DNA from: Nocardioides caldifontis | Lineage (GTDB): Bacteria > Actinomycetota > Actinomycetes > Propionibacteriales > Nocardioidaceae | Direction: 5' to 3' | DNA length: 64,000 nucleotides | Assembly (NCBI RefSeq): GCF_008087345.1 | Contig: NZ_VHIB01000012.1 | Span: 1-64,000, forward strand | In this document: positions 26,799 through 37,986 of the stretch, piece by piece | Layout: every line of letters starts with the position of its first letter | Numbering within the stretch: position 1 is the stretch's first letter | Notes under the pieces: model-generated | Databases searched by the model: none | Told to the model about the DNA's origin: nothing | Seen by the model: the letters and a program-made list of their open reading frames with translations, nothing else | Program-made: the position numbers and the translations under genes

Positions 26799-27710
26799 GT
26801 GGGTCTGCAGCTCCCCAAGCGGGCGCGGAAGGCGAGTGTGTGGGCCTTGGTCGCCCCCGCCGTCCTGGCGCTGAGTGCTTGCTCAGACGAAGCGCAGGGT
26901 GAGTGGTCGCGGATCGCGATGCCCGAGGGGGCGTCGGACCGGTCCGAGCACATCATCGACTTCTGGCAGTGGACGTGGTTGGCGGCGATCCTCGTCGGGA
27001 TCCTGACCTGGGGGCTGATCCTCTACGCGGCGTTCAAGTTCCGCCGGCGCAGCGACGACGAGGTCCCCGTCCAGACCCGCTACAACCTGCCGATGGAGAT
27101 CCTCTACACCATCGCGCCGGTGATCGTGGTGCTGGTCTTCTTCAAGTTCGTCATCGACACCCAGAACGAGGTCGACGCCGCGAGCGACCAGCCCGACCAC
27201 GTCGTCAAGGTCGTCGGCCAGCAGTGGTCGTGGACCTTCAACTACGTCGACGACCCGGCGCTCGGGGGCTCGAGCGAGCAGGACGTCTGCGAGGACCAGA
27301 CGGACGCCGAGAGCGCGACCTGCGTCTACAACGTGGGCACCCCCGCCGAGGTCCCGACCATGTACCTCCCCGTCGACGAGACGGTGCGGTTCGAGCTGGT
27401 CAGCCCGGATGTCGTGCACTCCTTCTGGGTGCCTGCCTTCAACTACAAGCTCGACGTGATCCCCGGGCGTGAGAACGCCTTCGAGATCACGCCGACCCGC
27501 GAGGGCACGTTCGTCGGCCGGTGCGCGGAGCTGTGCGGCACCTACCACTCGCGGATGCTGTTCAACGTGGAGATCGTGAGCGCCGAGGAGTACGAGCAGC
27601 ACCTGCGCGACCTCGCCGACGCCGGCAACGTCGGCATCGCGCTCGGTGGCTCGGAGGCCATCACGCAGGACGGCCTGGACGCAGAGGAAGAGACGGAGGC
27701 AGGCGAGTGA
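26799..27710 (+). CDS. ctaC: Cytochrome c oxidase subunit II
   Basis: 303 residues. A lipoprotein-type signal (LALSACSDE) is followed by two membrane helices ([25 protein letters not shown] and [21 protein letters not shown]). The periplasmic cupredoxin domain carries the CuA ligands: histidine in DVVHSFWVP near 205 and [12 protein letters not shown] near 240-252. An extra loop with two cysteines ([17 protein letters not shown]) is typical of actinobacteria. GTG start at 26799 with GAGAGGAAGG upstream. The stop overlaps the ctaD start. Confidence 0.95.
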
Positions 27711-29377
27711 CCGCCGAGGGAATGGCCGCACGGACGGCCGAGACCGGGGTCCGGCAGGCGACCATCGGCCAGCAGGTCGTCCGCGTCCTCACCACCACCG
27801 ACCACAAGCTGATCGGCAAGCTCTACCTCGGGACCTCGTTCGCGTGGTTCCTCATCGGCGGCGTGATGGCGCTGGTCATCCGCTCCGAGCTGGCGGTCCC
27901 GGGGCAGCAGGTCGTCAACGACGAGCTGTACAACCAGCTCTTCACGATGCACGGCACGATCATGCTGCTGCTGTTCGCGACGCCGCTGTTCTTCGGCTTC
28001 TCGAACGTGATCATGCCGCTGCAGATCGGTGCGCCCGACGTGGCGTTCCCGCGGCTGAACATGCTCAGCTACTGGTTCTTCCTCTTCGGCGGCCTCATCG
28101 CGGCCTCCGGCTTCTTCACGCCGTCCGGTGCGGCAGGCTTCGGCTGGTACGCCTACGCCCCGCTCTCCGACGCGGTCCGCAGCCCCGGTGTCGGCGGTGA
28201 CCTCTGGATCATGGGGCTCTACCTCGCCGGTCTGGGCTCGATCCTCGGCGCGGTCAACTTCGTCACCACGATCATCTGCATGCGGGCGCCCGGCATGACG
28301 ATGTTCCGGATGCCGATCTTCACCTGGAACACCCTGATCACGAGCATGCTCGTGCTGATCGTGTTCCCGATCCTGGCCGGCACGCTGCTCATGCTCGAGG
28401 CCGACCGGATGTTCGGCGCGCACGTCTTCGACCCGGCGCACGGCGGCCCGGTGCTGTGGCAGCACCTGTTCTGGTTCTTCGGCATCATCACCGAGGTCCT
28501 CCCGGCGTTCAGCCGCAAGCCGATCTTCGGCTACGTCGGCCTCGTCGGCGCGACCCTGGCGATCGCGTTCCTCTCGGTCGCGGTGTGGGCCCACCACATG
28601 TTCGCCACCGGCGCCGTCGACCTGGCGTTCTTCTCCGGCATGACGCTGCTGATCGCGGTCCCGACCGGTGTGAAGTTCTTCAACTGGATCGGCACGATGT
28701 GGGGCGGCTCGATCAGCTTCGAGACCCCGATGCTGTGGTCGCTCGGCTTCCTCGTGACCTTCCTCTTCGGCGGGCTCACCGGCGTGATCCTGGCGGCGCC
28801 GCCGCTGGACTTCCACCTCAACGACTCCTACTTCGTGGTGGCGCACTTCCACTACGTGGTGTTCGGCACGGTGGTCTTCGCGATGTTCGCCGGATTCTTC
28901 TTCTGGTGGCCGAAGATGACCGGGAAGATGCTCGACGAGCGGCTCGGCAAGCTGCACTTCTGGATGCTCTTCGTCGGCTTCCACACCACGTTCCTGGTGC
29001 AGCACTGGCTCGGTGTCGACGGGTTCCCCCGGCGCTACGCCGACTACCTCCCGGGCGACGGCTTCACCGTCCTCAACCAGGTCTCGACCATCGGGTCGTT
29101 CATCCTGGGCGCGTCGATGATCCCGTTCTTCCTCAACGTCTACAAGTCGGCGCGAGGGCCCAAGGTGCTCGTCGACGACCCGTGGGGCTGGGGCCGCTCG
29201 CTGGAGTGGGCGACCTCCTGCCCGCCGCCACGCCACAACTTCGTCACGCTGCCCCGGATCCGCTCCGAGTCGCCGGCGTTCGACCTGCACCACCCCGAGA
29301 TCGCGGCGCTCGAGCTCGAGGAGCAGGACGAGCGGAGCACGCGGGTCGAGGCCGGGACCCACGGGGGTGACCGCTGA
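27707..29377 (+). CDS. ctaD: Cytochrome c oxidase subunit I with an internal deletion
   Basis: Catalytic heme-copper subunit, 556 residues, about 12 membrane helices. Heme a and a3 ligands ([22 protein letters not shown]), the CuB pair WAHHMFATG and the proton-channel stretch [14 protein letters not shown] are intact. At residues 257-262 the sequence reads WFFG then IITEVLPAF. The family reads WFFG-HPEVY...PFFG-I there, so about 13 residues including the third CuB histidine and the tyrosine cross-linked to a CuB histidine are absent. The frame is kept. As written the protein should not assemble a normal active site. GTG start overlaps the ctaC stop; a Met five codons later is an alternative. 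Confidence 0.93.
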
Positions 29378-29775
29378 TGCGGATGGAAGCTTGGATCTTC
29401 GGGATGTGCACGGCGTTCTTCGTGCTCGTCACCCCGTCGTACTGGTTCATCACGGGTGACCCGACCGGCACCTCCGCGCTGGTCATGACCACGCTGCTCG
29501 CGGCGCTGATCGCGTTCTACCTCGGGTTCCACGCCTCGAAGATGGACGCCCGGCCGGAGGACCGCATCGACGCGGAGATCGCCGAGGGGGCGGGGGAGCT
29601 CGGCTTCTTCCCGCCGTACTCCTGGTGGCCGCTGTGGTGCGCCTCGACCGCCGCGGTGATCGTGTTCGGCATGGCGATGGGCCAGTGGTGGTTGGCGATC
29701 ATCGGCACCGCCTTCGGCTTCGTGGCCCTGACCCAGTGGGTGTTCGAGTACTACAAGGGCGACCACGCGCACTGA
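29377..29775 (+). CDS. ctaF: Cytochrome c oxidase subunit IV, actinobacterial type
   Basis: 132 residues with four hydrophobic helices (AWIFGMCTAFFVLVTPSYWFI; SALVMTTLLAALIAFYLGF; LWCASTAAVIVFGMAMGQWW; AIIGTAFGFVALTQWVFEY). The FYLGFHASKM motif is characteristic of CtaF of the aa3 oxidase in the bcc-aa3 supercomplex. The ATG overlaps the ctaD stop (TGATG). A 12-bp perfect palindrome (CGGACCGGTCCG, 29778-29789) follows the stop. Confidence 0.92.
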   Translation: MRMEAWIFGMCTAFFVLVTPSYWFITGDPTGTSALVMTTLLAALIAFYLGFHASKMDARPEDRIDAEIAEGAGELGFFPPYSWWPLWCASTAAVIVFGMAMGQWWLAIIGTAFGFVALTQWVFEYYKGDHAH

Positions 29776-34253: not shown

Positions 34254-35315
34254 TCAGCCTCGTTCCCAGAAGCTCGGGCCCACCGGCTCGGTGAAGTCGC
34301 TGGTGGCGATGAGGTAGCCCTCGTCGTCGACGGCGAGCGGCAGCTGCGGCAGGGCGCGGGCCGCAGGGCCGAAGATCACCTTGCCGTTGTCGGCGAGGTC
34401 GAAGGTCGACTGGTGGCAGGGGCACAGCAGGTGGTGCGTCTGCTGCTCCCACAGGGAGATCGGGCAACCGACGTGGGTGCAGATCTTCGAGTAGGCGAGG
34501 ATCCCGTCGACTCCCCAGTTCTCGCGGCCTTCCGCGGGGGTGATGTCGTCGGGCTGCATCCGGACGAGGATCAGCGCCGCCTTCGCCTTCTCGGCGAGCA
34601 GGTGGTGCCCCTCGATCGGCTCGGAGTCGTAGGGCTCGGGGTTGTAGAAGACCTCGGGCTCGGCGTTGACCAGCTGACCGATGCGGACCCACTCCGGGCG
34701 GATGGGGGAGCCGGAGACGTCGTTGACGACGCGCATCCCTTCCTTCCACACCGTGTGGTACAGCGCGTCACCCGGGAGCGGGCCGAGGTCGCGCAGCGCC
34801 ACGATCACCGGCAGCAGGAGCGTGCCGGCGGCGCCGAGCAGCGAGTTGCGGATCAGCGGGCGGCGGGCGATGCCGGAATCCTCGACGCCGGTGTTGAAGG
34901 CGGTGATCGCCTCCTCGCGGTCCTCGTCCGGGGAGCGGAGCGCGTGGCGCATCTCCACGATCTCGGTGTCGCTCATCAGCTTGCGCGACCACTGGATCGC
35001 GCCGATGCCGATGAAGAGCAGCGCAAGGCCGAGGGTGAGGCCGAGGGTGACGTTGGACGCACCCATCCCGAGGATCGTGTCGGGGTCGTCGCCGATGTCG
35101 AAGGTGAAGTAGGCGACGCAGAACAGGATCGCCATCAGGCTCGAGAGCCCGAAGAACGTGGCGATCTGACGCTCGGCCCGCTTCTCGGCGGCGGGGTCGA
35201 CGTCGGTGGGACGCGGACGGTGCTCGGCGAACCCCGGGTCACCGACCGGGTGGGCGACCGCGTCCGGGTTCCCGGCCGTGGTCGGGTTGTTCGGGTCGTG
35301 GACGAGGTCGGTCAC
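34254..35315 (-). CDS. qcrA: Rieske iron-sulfur subunit of the bc1 complex
   Basis: 353 residues. Three membrane helices, as in actinobacterial QcrA (FFGLSSLMAILFCVAYFTF; NVTLGLTLGLALLFIGIGAIQW; SLLGAAGTLLLPVIVAL), then the [2Fe-2S] domain with ligands in CTHVGCPI and CPCHQSTF. Accepts an electron from quinol at QcrB and passes it to QcrC. GTG start at 35315 overlaps the qcrC stop. Confidence 0.95.
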   Translation of the reverse strand: MTDLVHDPNNPTTAGNPDAVAHPVGDPGFAEHRPRPTDVDPAAEKRAERQIATFFGLSSLMAILFCVAYFTFDIGDDPDTILGMGASNVTLGLTLGLALLFIGIGAIQWSRKLMSDTEIVEMRHALRSPDEDREEAITAFNTGVEDSGIARRPLIRNSLLGAAGTLLLPVIVALRDLGPLPGDALYHTVWKEGMRVVNDVSGSPIRPEWVRIGQLVNAEPEVFYNPEPYDSEPIEGHHLLAEKAKAALILVRMQPDDITPAEGRENWGVDGILAYSKICTHVGCPISLWEQQTHHLLCPCHQSTFDLADNGKVIFGPAARALPQLPLAVDDEGYLIATSDFTEPVGPSFWERG

Positions 35316-36172
35316 GCCTTGGTTCCCTTCCTGGAAGAGCGTGCGGTGTGGGAGGCGATCCAGACCGCGAACCCCACGAGGACCCCGATTCCCCCGATCC
35401 AGGCCACCATTCCTTCGGCGACCGGCCCGTAGGAGCCGAGCGTGGTGCCGCCGTACTTCGGCTGCTCCTCGATGCTCTGGAGGTAGGCGATGATGTCGCG
35501 CTTCTGCTCGGGCTCGAGGACGTCGTCGGAGAACACCGGCATCTGCTGGGGGCCGGTCAGCATGGCCTCGTAGACGTGCCGGGGCTCGACGCCGAGCAGC
35601 GACGGGGCGTACTTGCCGTCGGGCAGGGCGCCGCCGGACGCGGCGAAGTTGTGGCATGCGGTGCAGTTGGTGCGGAAGAACTCACCACCGCGGACGATCG
35701 CCTCCTGGCGCTCGTCCTCGGGGATCGACTCGGGGTCGTACTTCTCGGCGTCGGGGATCGCGGGGCCGGGGCCGAGGCTGGCGACGAACGCGGCGAGCTG
35801 CGAGATCTCCTCGTCGTTGTAGGCCACCCGCTTCACCGGTGCCTGCTGGCTCGGGTTCGCCATCGGCATCCGGCCGGTGCCCACCTGGAAGTCGACGGCG
35901 GCGGCGCCCACGCCGACCAGTGACGGGCCGTAGTTGTCGCCGTTCTTGTCGACGACACCCTCGCCGTTCTTGCCGTGGCACGAGGAGCAACCGACGAGGA
36001 ACAGCTCGCGGCCCTTGGCGACGTCGTCGGTGTCGCTGCCGGTGCTCTCCGCCTGCGCCGGCGACAGCAGCGCGTAGGCGCCACCGGTCAGCAGCAGACC
36101 GAGCAGCAGCACGATCGGGCCGGCCAGGCGGCTGCGGCGCCGGGCGGCGAGTCGAGCGGTCAGGAGTCGCAC
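35312..36172 (-). CDS. qcrC: Diheme cytochrome c subunit of the bc1 complex
   Basis: 286 residues. An N-terminal signal/anchor helix, two class I cytochrome c domains with CSSCH (near 62-66) and CTACH (near 169-173), methionines in GRMPMANPS and PQQMPVFSD as axial ligand candidates, and a C-terminal anchor helix. It links the Rieske protein to CuA of CtaC without soluble cytochrome c. First gene of qcrC-qcrA-qcrB; GTG start. Confidence 0.95.
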   Translation of the reverse strand: MRLLTARLAARRRSRLAGPIVLLLGLLLTGGAYALLSPAQAESTGSDTDDVAKGRELFLVGCSSCHGKNGEGVVDKNGDNYGPSLVGVGAAAVDFQVGTGRMPMANPSQQAPVKRVAYNDEEISQLAAFVASLGPGPAIPDAEKYDPESIPEDERQEAIVRGGEFFRTNCTACHNFAASGGALPDGKYAPSLLGVEPRHVYEAMLTGPQQMPVFSDDVLEPEQKRDIIAYLQSIEEQPKYGGTTLGSYGPVAEGMVAWIGGIGVLVGFAVWIASHTARSSRKGTKA

Positions 36173-36993: not shown

Positions 36994-37986
36994 GTGCTGC
37001 TGCGTACGGCGGACGGCTCCACGCCCGCCCTTCCCCCCTTCGACCTCGGCCGGATCGTCACCGAGGCCGGCATCGACCCGGTCGCCACGATCCTGACGAT
37101 CTGGGTCGCCGGCGCCTACCTCGTCGGGGTCCGCGTGCTTCGCGCCCGCGGGGACCGGTGGCCCGTTGGCCGCACGATCAGCTTCGTGGTGCTCGGCATG
37201 GGCTCCTTCGCGTTCGCCACCATGTCGGGGCTCGGTGCCTACGACAACGTGATGCTGAGCGTCCACATGGTGCAGCACATGATCCTGACGATGGTCACGC
37301 CGCTGGCGCTGGCGCTCGGGGCCCCGGTGACGCTGGCGCTGCGCACCCTCCCCGCGCGCCCCCGGCGGTGGCTGCTGGCCGTGGTGCACTCCACACCGGT
37401 GAAGGTGCTCTCGTTCCCACCGTTGGCCTTCCTGCTCTTCGTGCTCAGCCCGTGGGTGCTCTACTTCAGCGCCTGGTACCCGGCGTCCGCGGAGTCGACG
37501 TACGTCCACGAGATGACCCACCTGCACCTGGTCGCCACCGGCGCGCTCTTCCTGTGGCCGCTCGTGGGGGTCGACCCGGTGCCCGGGCGCGTCGCCTACC
37601 CGTTCCGGATGCTGCTGATGGTGCTGACGCTGCCGTTCCACGCATTCCTGGGCGTGACGATCATGAACCAGGACGCGTTGATCGCCGAGGACCACTTCCG
37701 GGGGCTGGGGCTGGACTGGCTCCCGGACCCGATGGACGACCAGCACCTCGCCGGCGGGATCCTGTGGGGCACCGGTGACGTGGTCGGGCTGATCTTCTTC
37801 ATGGCGCTCTTCGCGCAGTGGGTCCGCTCCTCCATGCGGGAGGCCGAGCGCGAGGACCGCCGGCTCGACCGCCTCGAGCGCCAGGAGCGGCAGGACCGTC
37901 AGAACCGGCTGGGTGGCCCCGAGCCCGACCCGGACCGTTCCGCGCAGGCCGACGCCGGAGGCCGCCGGGTGCCGGCAGCCGAGTAA
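36994..37986 (+). CDS. ctaG: Cytochrome c oxidase assembly protein, CtaG (caa3) type
   Basis: 330-residue polytopic membrane protein with about seven helices. The conserved histidine patches HMVQHMILTMVTPL and HEMTHLHLVATGALFLWPL may bind copper for CuB insertion. HAFLGVTIMNQDALIAEDHF is also typical. The C-terminal 55 residues are a charged Arg/Asp/Gln-rich tail. GTG start at 36994; divergent from ctaE. Confidence 0.85.
   Translation: MLLRTADGSTPALPPFDLGRIVTEAGIDPVATILTIWVAGAYLVGVRVLRARGDRWPVGRTISFVVLGMGSFAFATMSGLGAYDNVMLSVHMVQHMILTMVTPLALALGAPVTLALRTLPARPRRWLLAVVHSTPVKVLSFPPLAFLLFVLSPWVLYFSAWYPASAESTYVHEMTHLHLVATGALFLWPLVGVDPVPGRVAYPFRMLLMVLTLPFHAFLGVTIMNQDALIAEDHFRGLGLDWLPDPMDDQHLAGGILWGTGDVVGLIFFMALFAQWVRSSMREAEREDRRLDRLERQERQDRQNRLGGPEPDPDRSAQADAGGRRVPAAE

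Follow-up and report, generated by a model that had tools for sequence, protein, structure and literature searches.

A 39-bp in-frame deletion in the assembled ctaD gene of Nocardioides caldifontis, in a genome with two cytochrome bd gene sets

The assembled ctaD gene of Nocardioides caldifontis, which encodes subunit I of an aa3-type cytochrome c oxidase, carries a 39-bp deletion that takes the HPEVY segment out of the protein. We consider it likely that the deletion is really in the DNA and that it killed the enzyme. With similar, fairly good confidence we think that the sequenced cell carries in ctaD, the gene of the one heme-copper oxidase detected, a loss-of-function allele of recent origin for which cytochrome bd compensates. 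The gene lies in the window, i.e. the whole stretch of 64,000 nucleotides that was analysed, which is part of contig 7 of a 4.81 Mb genome (33 contigs, 99.65% complete). A search of the open-licence PMC literature found no earlier report of this deletion.

The deletion and its flanking repeat

The gene and the deletion junction have the following positions in the window:

27707-29377, + strand: ctaD, subunit I of the aa3-type cytochrome c oxidase; 556 aa, with 13 aa missing after G259; PF00115, 492 bits
28474-28483, + strand: the single surviving direct-repeat copy GTTCTTCGGC, i.e. the deletion junction; the boundary between G259 and I260 is at 28483/28484

Translation of 27707-29377 gives a protein without an internal stop in which residues 256-260 read WFFG-I. 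The segment gone from the assembled sequence is HPEVYIIALPFFG, 13 residues or 39 bp, and with it the HPEVY motif of A-type subunit I is missing at the junction. The protein covers the PF00115 (COX1) profile over positions 2-436 of 436; since the full profile is matched and there is no stop, the defect is easy to miss. Histidines H82, H296, H297, H380 and H382 are kept and are invariant across a 38-row alignment; we take them to be the ligands of haem a and haem a3 and two of the three CuB ligands. A second GTTCTTCGGC word is found earlier in ctaD, at 27988, and plays no part in the deletion.

The intact form of the segment was seen in every related gene. W-FFG-HPEVY...FFG is present in 113/113 related ctaD loci, among which some species are possibly counted twice, with the FFG-encoding words exactly 39 bp apart; in 84 aligned relatives another seven or eight residues, the last three being FFG, come after WFFG-HPEVY. 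Because the relatives hold both FFG words at this spacing, the gap amounts to exactly 13 codons. The earlier note had put the in-frame loss at about 13 residues, and the translation together with the segment in all 113 relatives bears this out. The 113-locus set, on which the counts, the conservation and the pN/pS values are based, excluded the window duplicates L001, L004 and L131, the G004 duplicate L114, and also L002, L003 and L133-L142 (L139 being the frameshifted gene of G036); L046, L074 and L075 were kept although the matched stretch contains a stop. The closest named ctaD relatives among the matches returned, from which very near records were possibly excluded, are Nocardioides species, the best at 83% identity.

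Of the 113 relatives, 48 have 10 bp as the longest exact run shared at the 39-bp spacing, 57 have 9 bp and 8 have less; the run is thus at least 9 bp long in 105/113, and both 9-mers are identical in 59/113. In other words, the flanking direct repeat TTCTTCGGC that the earlier note had expected is found as two copies at the spacing of the deleted length in relatives and as one copy here, which is the pattern of a deletion between short direct repeats. Since this repeat bounds the segment at exactly 39 bp, one slip accounts for the deletion. The slip would have joined two copies of GTTCTTCGG(C), each 9-10 bp long, each encoding FFG and set 39 bp apart, and would have removed one copy plus the intervening bases. 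At the level of sequence, the comparison demonstrates the loss of one repeat copy with the bases between; the slip itself is the probable route. The spacing of the repeats is divisible by three, so the reading frame was preserved; as the repeats are in frame, the intact frame of ctaD is no evidence of retained function. According to PMC2884548, slippage at short repeats does not need repeats long enough for RecA.

When the exact junction was searched as a degenerate DNA pattern, this genome alone matched among 391 genomes of the order (0/390 others), whereby genomes were counted with or without ctaD and the pattern, which catches only the exact junction, misses other lesions. A recurrent deletion at the repeat was rejected on this count. 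Across 396 genomes of the phylum there were two matches, this genome and G364. The latter (L132, G364:C1) was rejected as an oxidase junction: its translation, which is not a family search, reads as a PTS sugar permease. The junction peptide HLFWFFGI occurs in this permease too, so that the DNA pattern alone is no proof of an oxidase. We note separately that the ctaD gene of one single-contig relative (L139, G036:C1:325000-328500, around 2169-2172) is frameshifted near residue 139 in query numbering, with HPEVY intact; this is either a lesion or a sequencing error.

Predicted effect on the oxidase and state of its partner genes

We take HPEVY to contribute three functional residues: the third histidine of CuB, the glutamate of the D-channel and a tyrosine that forms a cross-link with this histidine. 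The shortened CtaD would lose these residues and about half of their helix and, by established oxidase chemistry, would therefore have no working heme a3-CuB centre. The earlier note was right about the lost active site and the lost tyrosine; its cross-link partner is the histidine of the same motif and not another CuB histidine as stated there, and the glutamate that gates the D-channel, which that note did not name, would go as well. PMC8079940 describes a tyrosine joined by a cross-link to one of the CuB histidines and places a glutamic acid where the D-channel reaches the binuclear centre. The aa3 oxidase should be dead, i.e. oxygen reduction and proton pumping by the shortened CtaD should, judging from its sequence, be lost.

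Structure prediction points in the same direction. In the model of the intact homologue from Nocardioides flavus, the deleted residues 245-257 overlap 10 of the 19 residues of helix 248-266. AlphaFold2 gave 10-residue block means of 34-50 over residues 251-350 of the short protein, compared with 50-84 over the matching residues (about 236-348) of the intact homologue, predicted with the same 34 rows; the mean pLDDT is 63.0 and 71.7, respectively, and both models are of modest quality. The models thus give mild support to the view that the predicted fold suffers at and after the junction.

The other bcc-aa3 genes and a ctaG-like gene are nearby, and all seven have open frames:

26799-27710, + strand: ctaC, subunit II; named from position and sibling homology, with no Pfam basis, start codon chosen
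29377-29775, + strand: ctaF, subunit IV; PF12270, 168 bits
32478-34250, - strand: qcrB, cytochrome b of the bcc complex; PF13631 and PF00033, near full-length match in G001 and G002
34254-35315, - strand: qcrA, Rieske subunit; named from position and homology, with no Pfam basis, start approximate
35312-36172, - strand: qcrC, cytochrome c with two c-type domains; PF13442 (2 stretches) and PF00034
36230-36907, - strand: ctaE, subunit III; PF00510, 89% identity with G001 and G002 across residues 8-225
36994-37986, + strand: ctaG-like oxidase assembly factor; PF09678, 277 bits

Other terminal oxidases in the genome

PF00115 has one match in the whole genome, namely ctaD, and DNA matching the HPEVY pattern has no match elsewhere in it, so a second ctaD, raised as a possibility in the earlier note, was rejected. 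Cytochrome bd, raised there as well, was found in two gene sets. PF01654 (CydA) matches twice, and in both loci (L133 and L134) CydA and CydB (PF01654, PF02322) lie side by side. No alternative oxidase was matched in the genome, a result that carries no weight because the control genomes also gave none. The suggestion that the main aa3 oxidase is inactive and that the cell needs another oxidase is supported: electrons would leave via the quinol pool to cytochrome bd, and the redundancy of two bd sets would make the loss of aa3 tolerable.

The chromosomal set, on contig 2 (L133), consists of cydA and cydB and, after them, a gene for a cydDC-like ABC-transporter fusion of 1125 aa. The 8-kb block (L133:3082-11055, G000:C2) also holds a penicillinase-repressor-type regulator and an M48 peptidase. 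The two genes that flank this block are separated by about 8.0 kb in this genome, and the distance between their matches is 33 bp in G001 and 139 bp in G004; the same flank genes are far apart in G002 and on different contigs in G003. Contig 9, 136 kb long, carries the second cydAB (L134, G000:C9:48000-64000) along with a TrwC relaxase and a TraG-type coupling protein (L134, L140, L142), a CopD-CtaG fusion and ResB. The GC content of contig 9 is 0.67-0.69 in the four pieces measured, compared with 0.72 in the window, and the contig is probably a mobile element whose cargo serves respiration and copper handling. The best identity of the second CydA to the plasmid collection was 49.8%, i.e. no close source was found in that collection.

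CydA was found in 0/4 genus mates (two of them single-contig and 100% complete, one 96% and one 82% complete), which leaves this genome as the one genus member searched that has cytochrome bd genes. In a tree of ctaC, ctaD and ctaF with 10 taxa it is nearest to G003 and G004, with support of 69 and 54. As this support is low, the case for a gain of bd here, and not a loss in the relatives, comes mainly from the flanks that adjoin in G001 and G004. In the family, CydA is present in 107/149 genomes and a COX1 match in 142/149; of the 128 genomes at least 90% complete and with at most 5% contamination, 127 have COX1. The exception, G085, is a 99% complete genome without a COX1 match and with CydA, a possible natural aa3-negative relative.

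A link between the possession of bd and the loss of aa3 is plausible and, coming from one genome and set against these family counts, suggestive at most; that one of five genus members has both features could be coincidence.

Age of the lesion and competing explanations

At 219 columns conserved to at least 98%, the ctaD product deviates once (V267A), and the relatives deviate on average 1.3 times (median 0; at least once in 51/113). V267A (window 28505-28507) is the 8th residue past the junction; alanine is also found there in L023 and L077 among the 84 relatives, and its place beside the junction is probably chance. The pN of ctaD against genus mates is 0.081-0.098, compared with 0.077-0.107 among the mates, and pS is 0.27-0.31, compared with 0.29-0.34. 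An old pseudogene under relaxed selection is unsupported, given conserved columns and pN/pS values like those of the siblings. As ctaD shows little decay elsewhere and the partner frames are open, the lesion is young, and this holds for a natural, a culture and a computational origin alike. Going by the sequence, it would be a recent deletion or an artefact of assembly or culture.

The genes of the window were also compared with the 200 kb around ctaD in G001 and G002, two single-contig genus mates. For this, 42 frames were chosen from 48 codon-bias calls (8 omitted, some starts altered, qcrA and one other added), of which 38 matched at least one mate and 34 matched both. The frames at 26855 and 29957 were off, held stops and were not counted, which left 32 usable genes; ctaC was compared separately in the right frame. 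Among the 32, only ctaD has a gap of at least 5 aa whose position agrees between the two mates. Another seven genes have, between them, 9 gaps of 5-10 aa, which either appear with one mate only or differ in position between the two and lie mostly in poorly conserved stretches; a general gap problem across the window is unsupported by this comparison.

These results bear directly on whether the living strain has an intact ctaD and the record an artefact of assembly or consensus, i.e. of gap-closing, of contig merging via the 10-bp repeat or of a chimeric consensus. The lack of decay in the rest of ctaD suits this explanation just as well as it suits a recent loss; the assembly is, moreover, a draft of 33 contigs, and the repeat gives a join point. 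On the other hand, the junction sits 28 kb inside the contig, the window has zero N, and ctaD is the exception in the gap survey. A 10-bp repeat is far below the usual word lengths of assemblers, and 39 bp fit inside a short read. Misassembly at the same repeat, which the earlier note had offered beside slippage, would therefore need a gap-closing or merging step; slippage is the part of that proposal which found support, and we regard an artefact as unlikely. A mutation during cultivation of the sequenced clone, instead of a species trait, would be the same molecular event and a sub-case of the reading we prefer. The absence of decay in ctaD and the open bcc-aa3 frames speak for a young event, and the bd oxidases would allow such a mutant to persist; as the data fit a laboratory and a natural origin alike, we hold a culture origin to be quite possible without favouring it.

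It could also be asked whether the shortened CtaD has been retained to serve as a scaffold, or as an electron relay from CuA to haem a, in a bcc-aa3 supercomplex that has stopped reducing oxygen, with the electrons passing to another acceptor. In favour of this, ctaD is still in frame, its product still has the remaining five ligand histidines, and the partner genes have open frames; in Streptomyces coelicolor, nitrate reductase 1 is reported to rely on, and to co-purify with, the bcc-aa3 supercomplex (PMC7931247). However, the in-frame survival stems from the spacing of the repeats and not from selection, the helix is missing about half of its residues, the predicted fold would suffer, and the lesion is too young to show selection. 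We find this idea barely credible. The broader scenario, in which a horizontally gained and partly conjugative bd runs respiration and bcc-aa3 survives as a catalytically blind scaffold or relay, caught just after inactivation, seems to us slightly less far-fetched and still very improbable. The preferred reading therefore stays a recent loss-of-function allele with bd compensation. If reads support the deletion, the strain would be a natural aa3-null actinobacterium on cytochrome bd, with the lesion and the bd sets visible against close relatives, and it could be tested how far bd carries such a cell and whether the gain of bd precedes the loss of the pumping oxidase. If reads contradict it, the database record needs correcting.

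Compared with known systems, CtaD resembles the subunit of actinobacterial bcc-aa3 supercomplexes. PDB chains 6adq_F and 7q21_D, presumably the Mycobacterium smegmatis and Corynebacterium glutamicum CtaD, are matched by phmmer over query residues 17-533 of 556 (E 4.3e-255 and 5.3e-233). Five of the six metal-ligand histidines are present here, and the same set of partner genes is nearby; the difference is that chains 6adq_F and 7rh5_R carry 13 residues at the junction and the CtaD described here is without them. Like the deletions between short direct repeats treated in PMC2884548, this one has a repeat below the RecA threshold cited there and keeps one copy; what sets it apart is not its kind but its place in the active site of the main oxidase. 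As an event it is ordinary; its site is not, since the only heme-copper oxidase found loses its catalytic core.

Life without aa3 on cytochrome bd is established in actinobacteria, and by analogy it may apply here. In M. tuberculosis, mutants deleted for ctaD, ctaC or ctaE-qcrCAB are slow to grow, and silencing of ctaE-qcrCAB stops the growth of a strain that lacks cydABDC (PMC6823465); an aa3 mutant of M. smegmatis has impaired growth and 50% less respiration (PMC11345224). Like these mutants, our genome has aa3 inactivated, as predicted, and bd available; unlike them, it has its lesion, a 39-bp in-frame deletion, in the sequenced genome itself and has two bd sets. In Bordetella pertussis, terminal oxidase genes are likewise lost or broken where others suffice (PMC11257404), but there several losses are common to many strains, whereas here a single young lesion affects one genome, in its sole heme-copper oxidase: an ordinary mechanism and a useful natural knockout.
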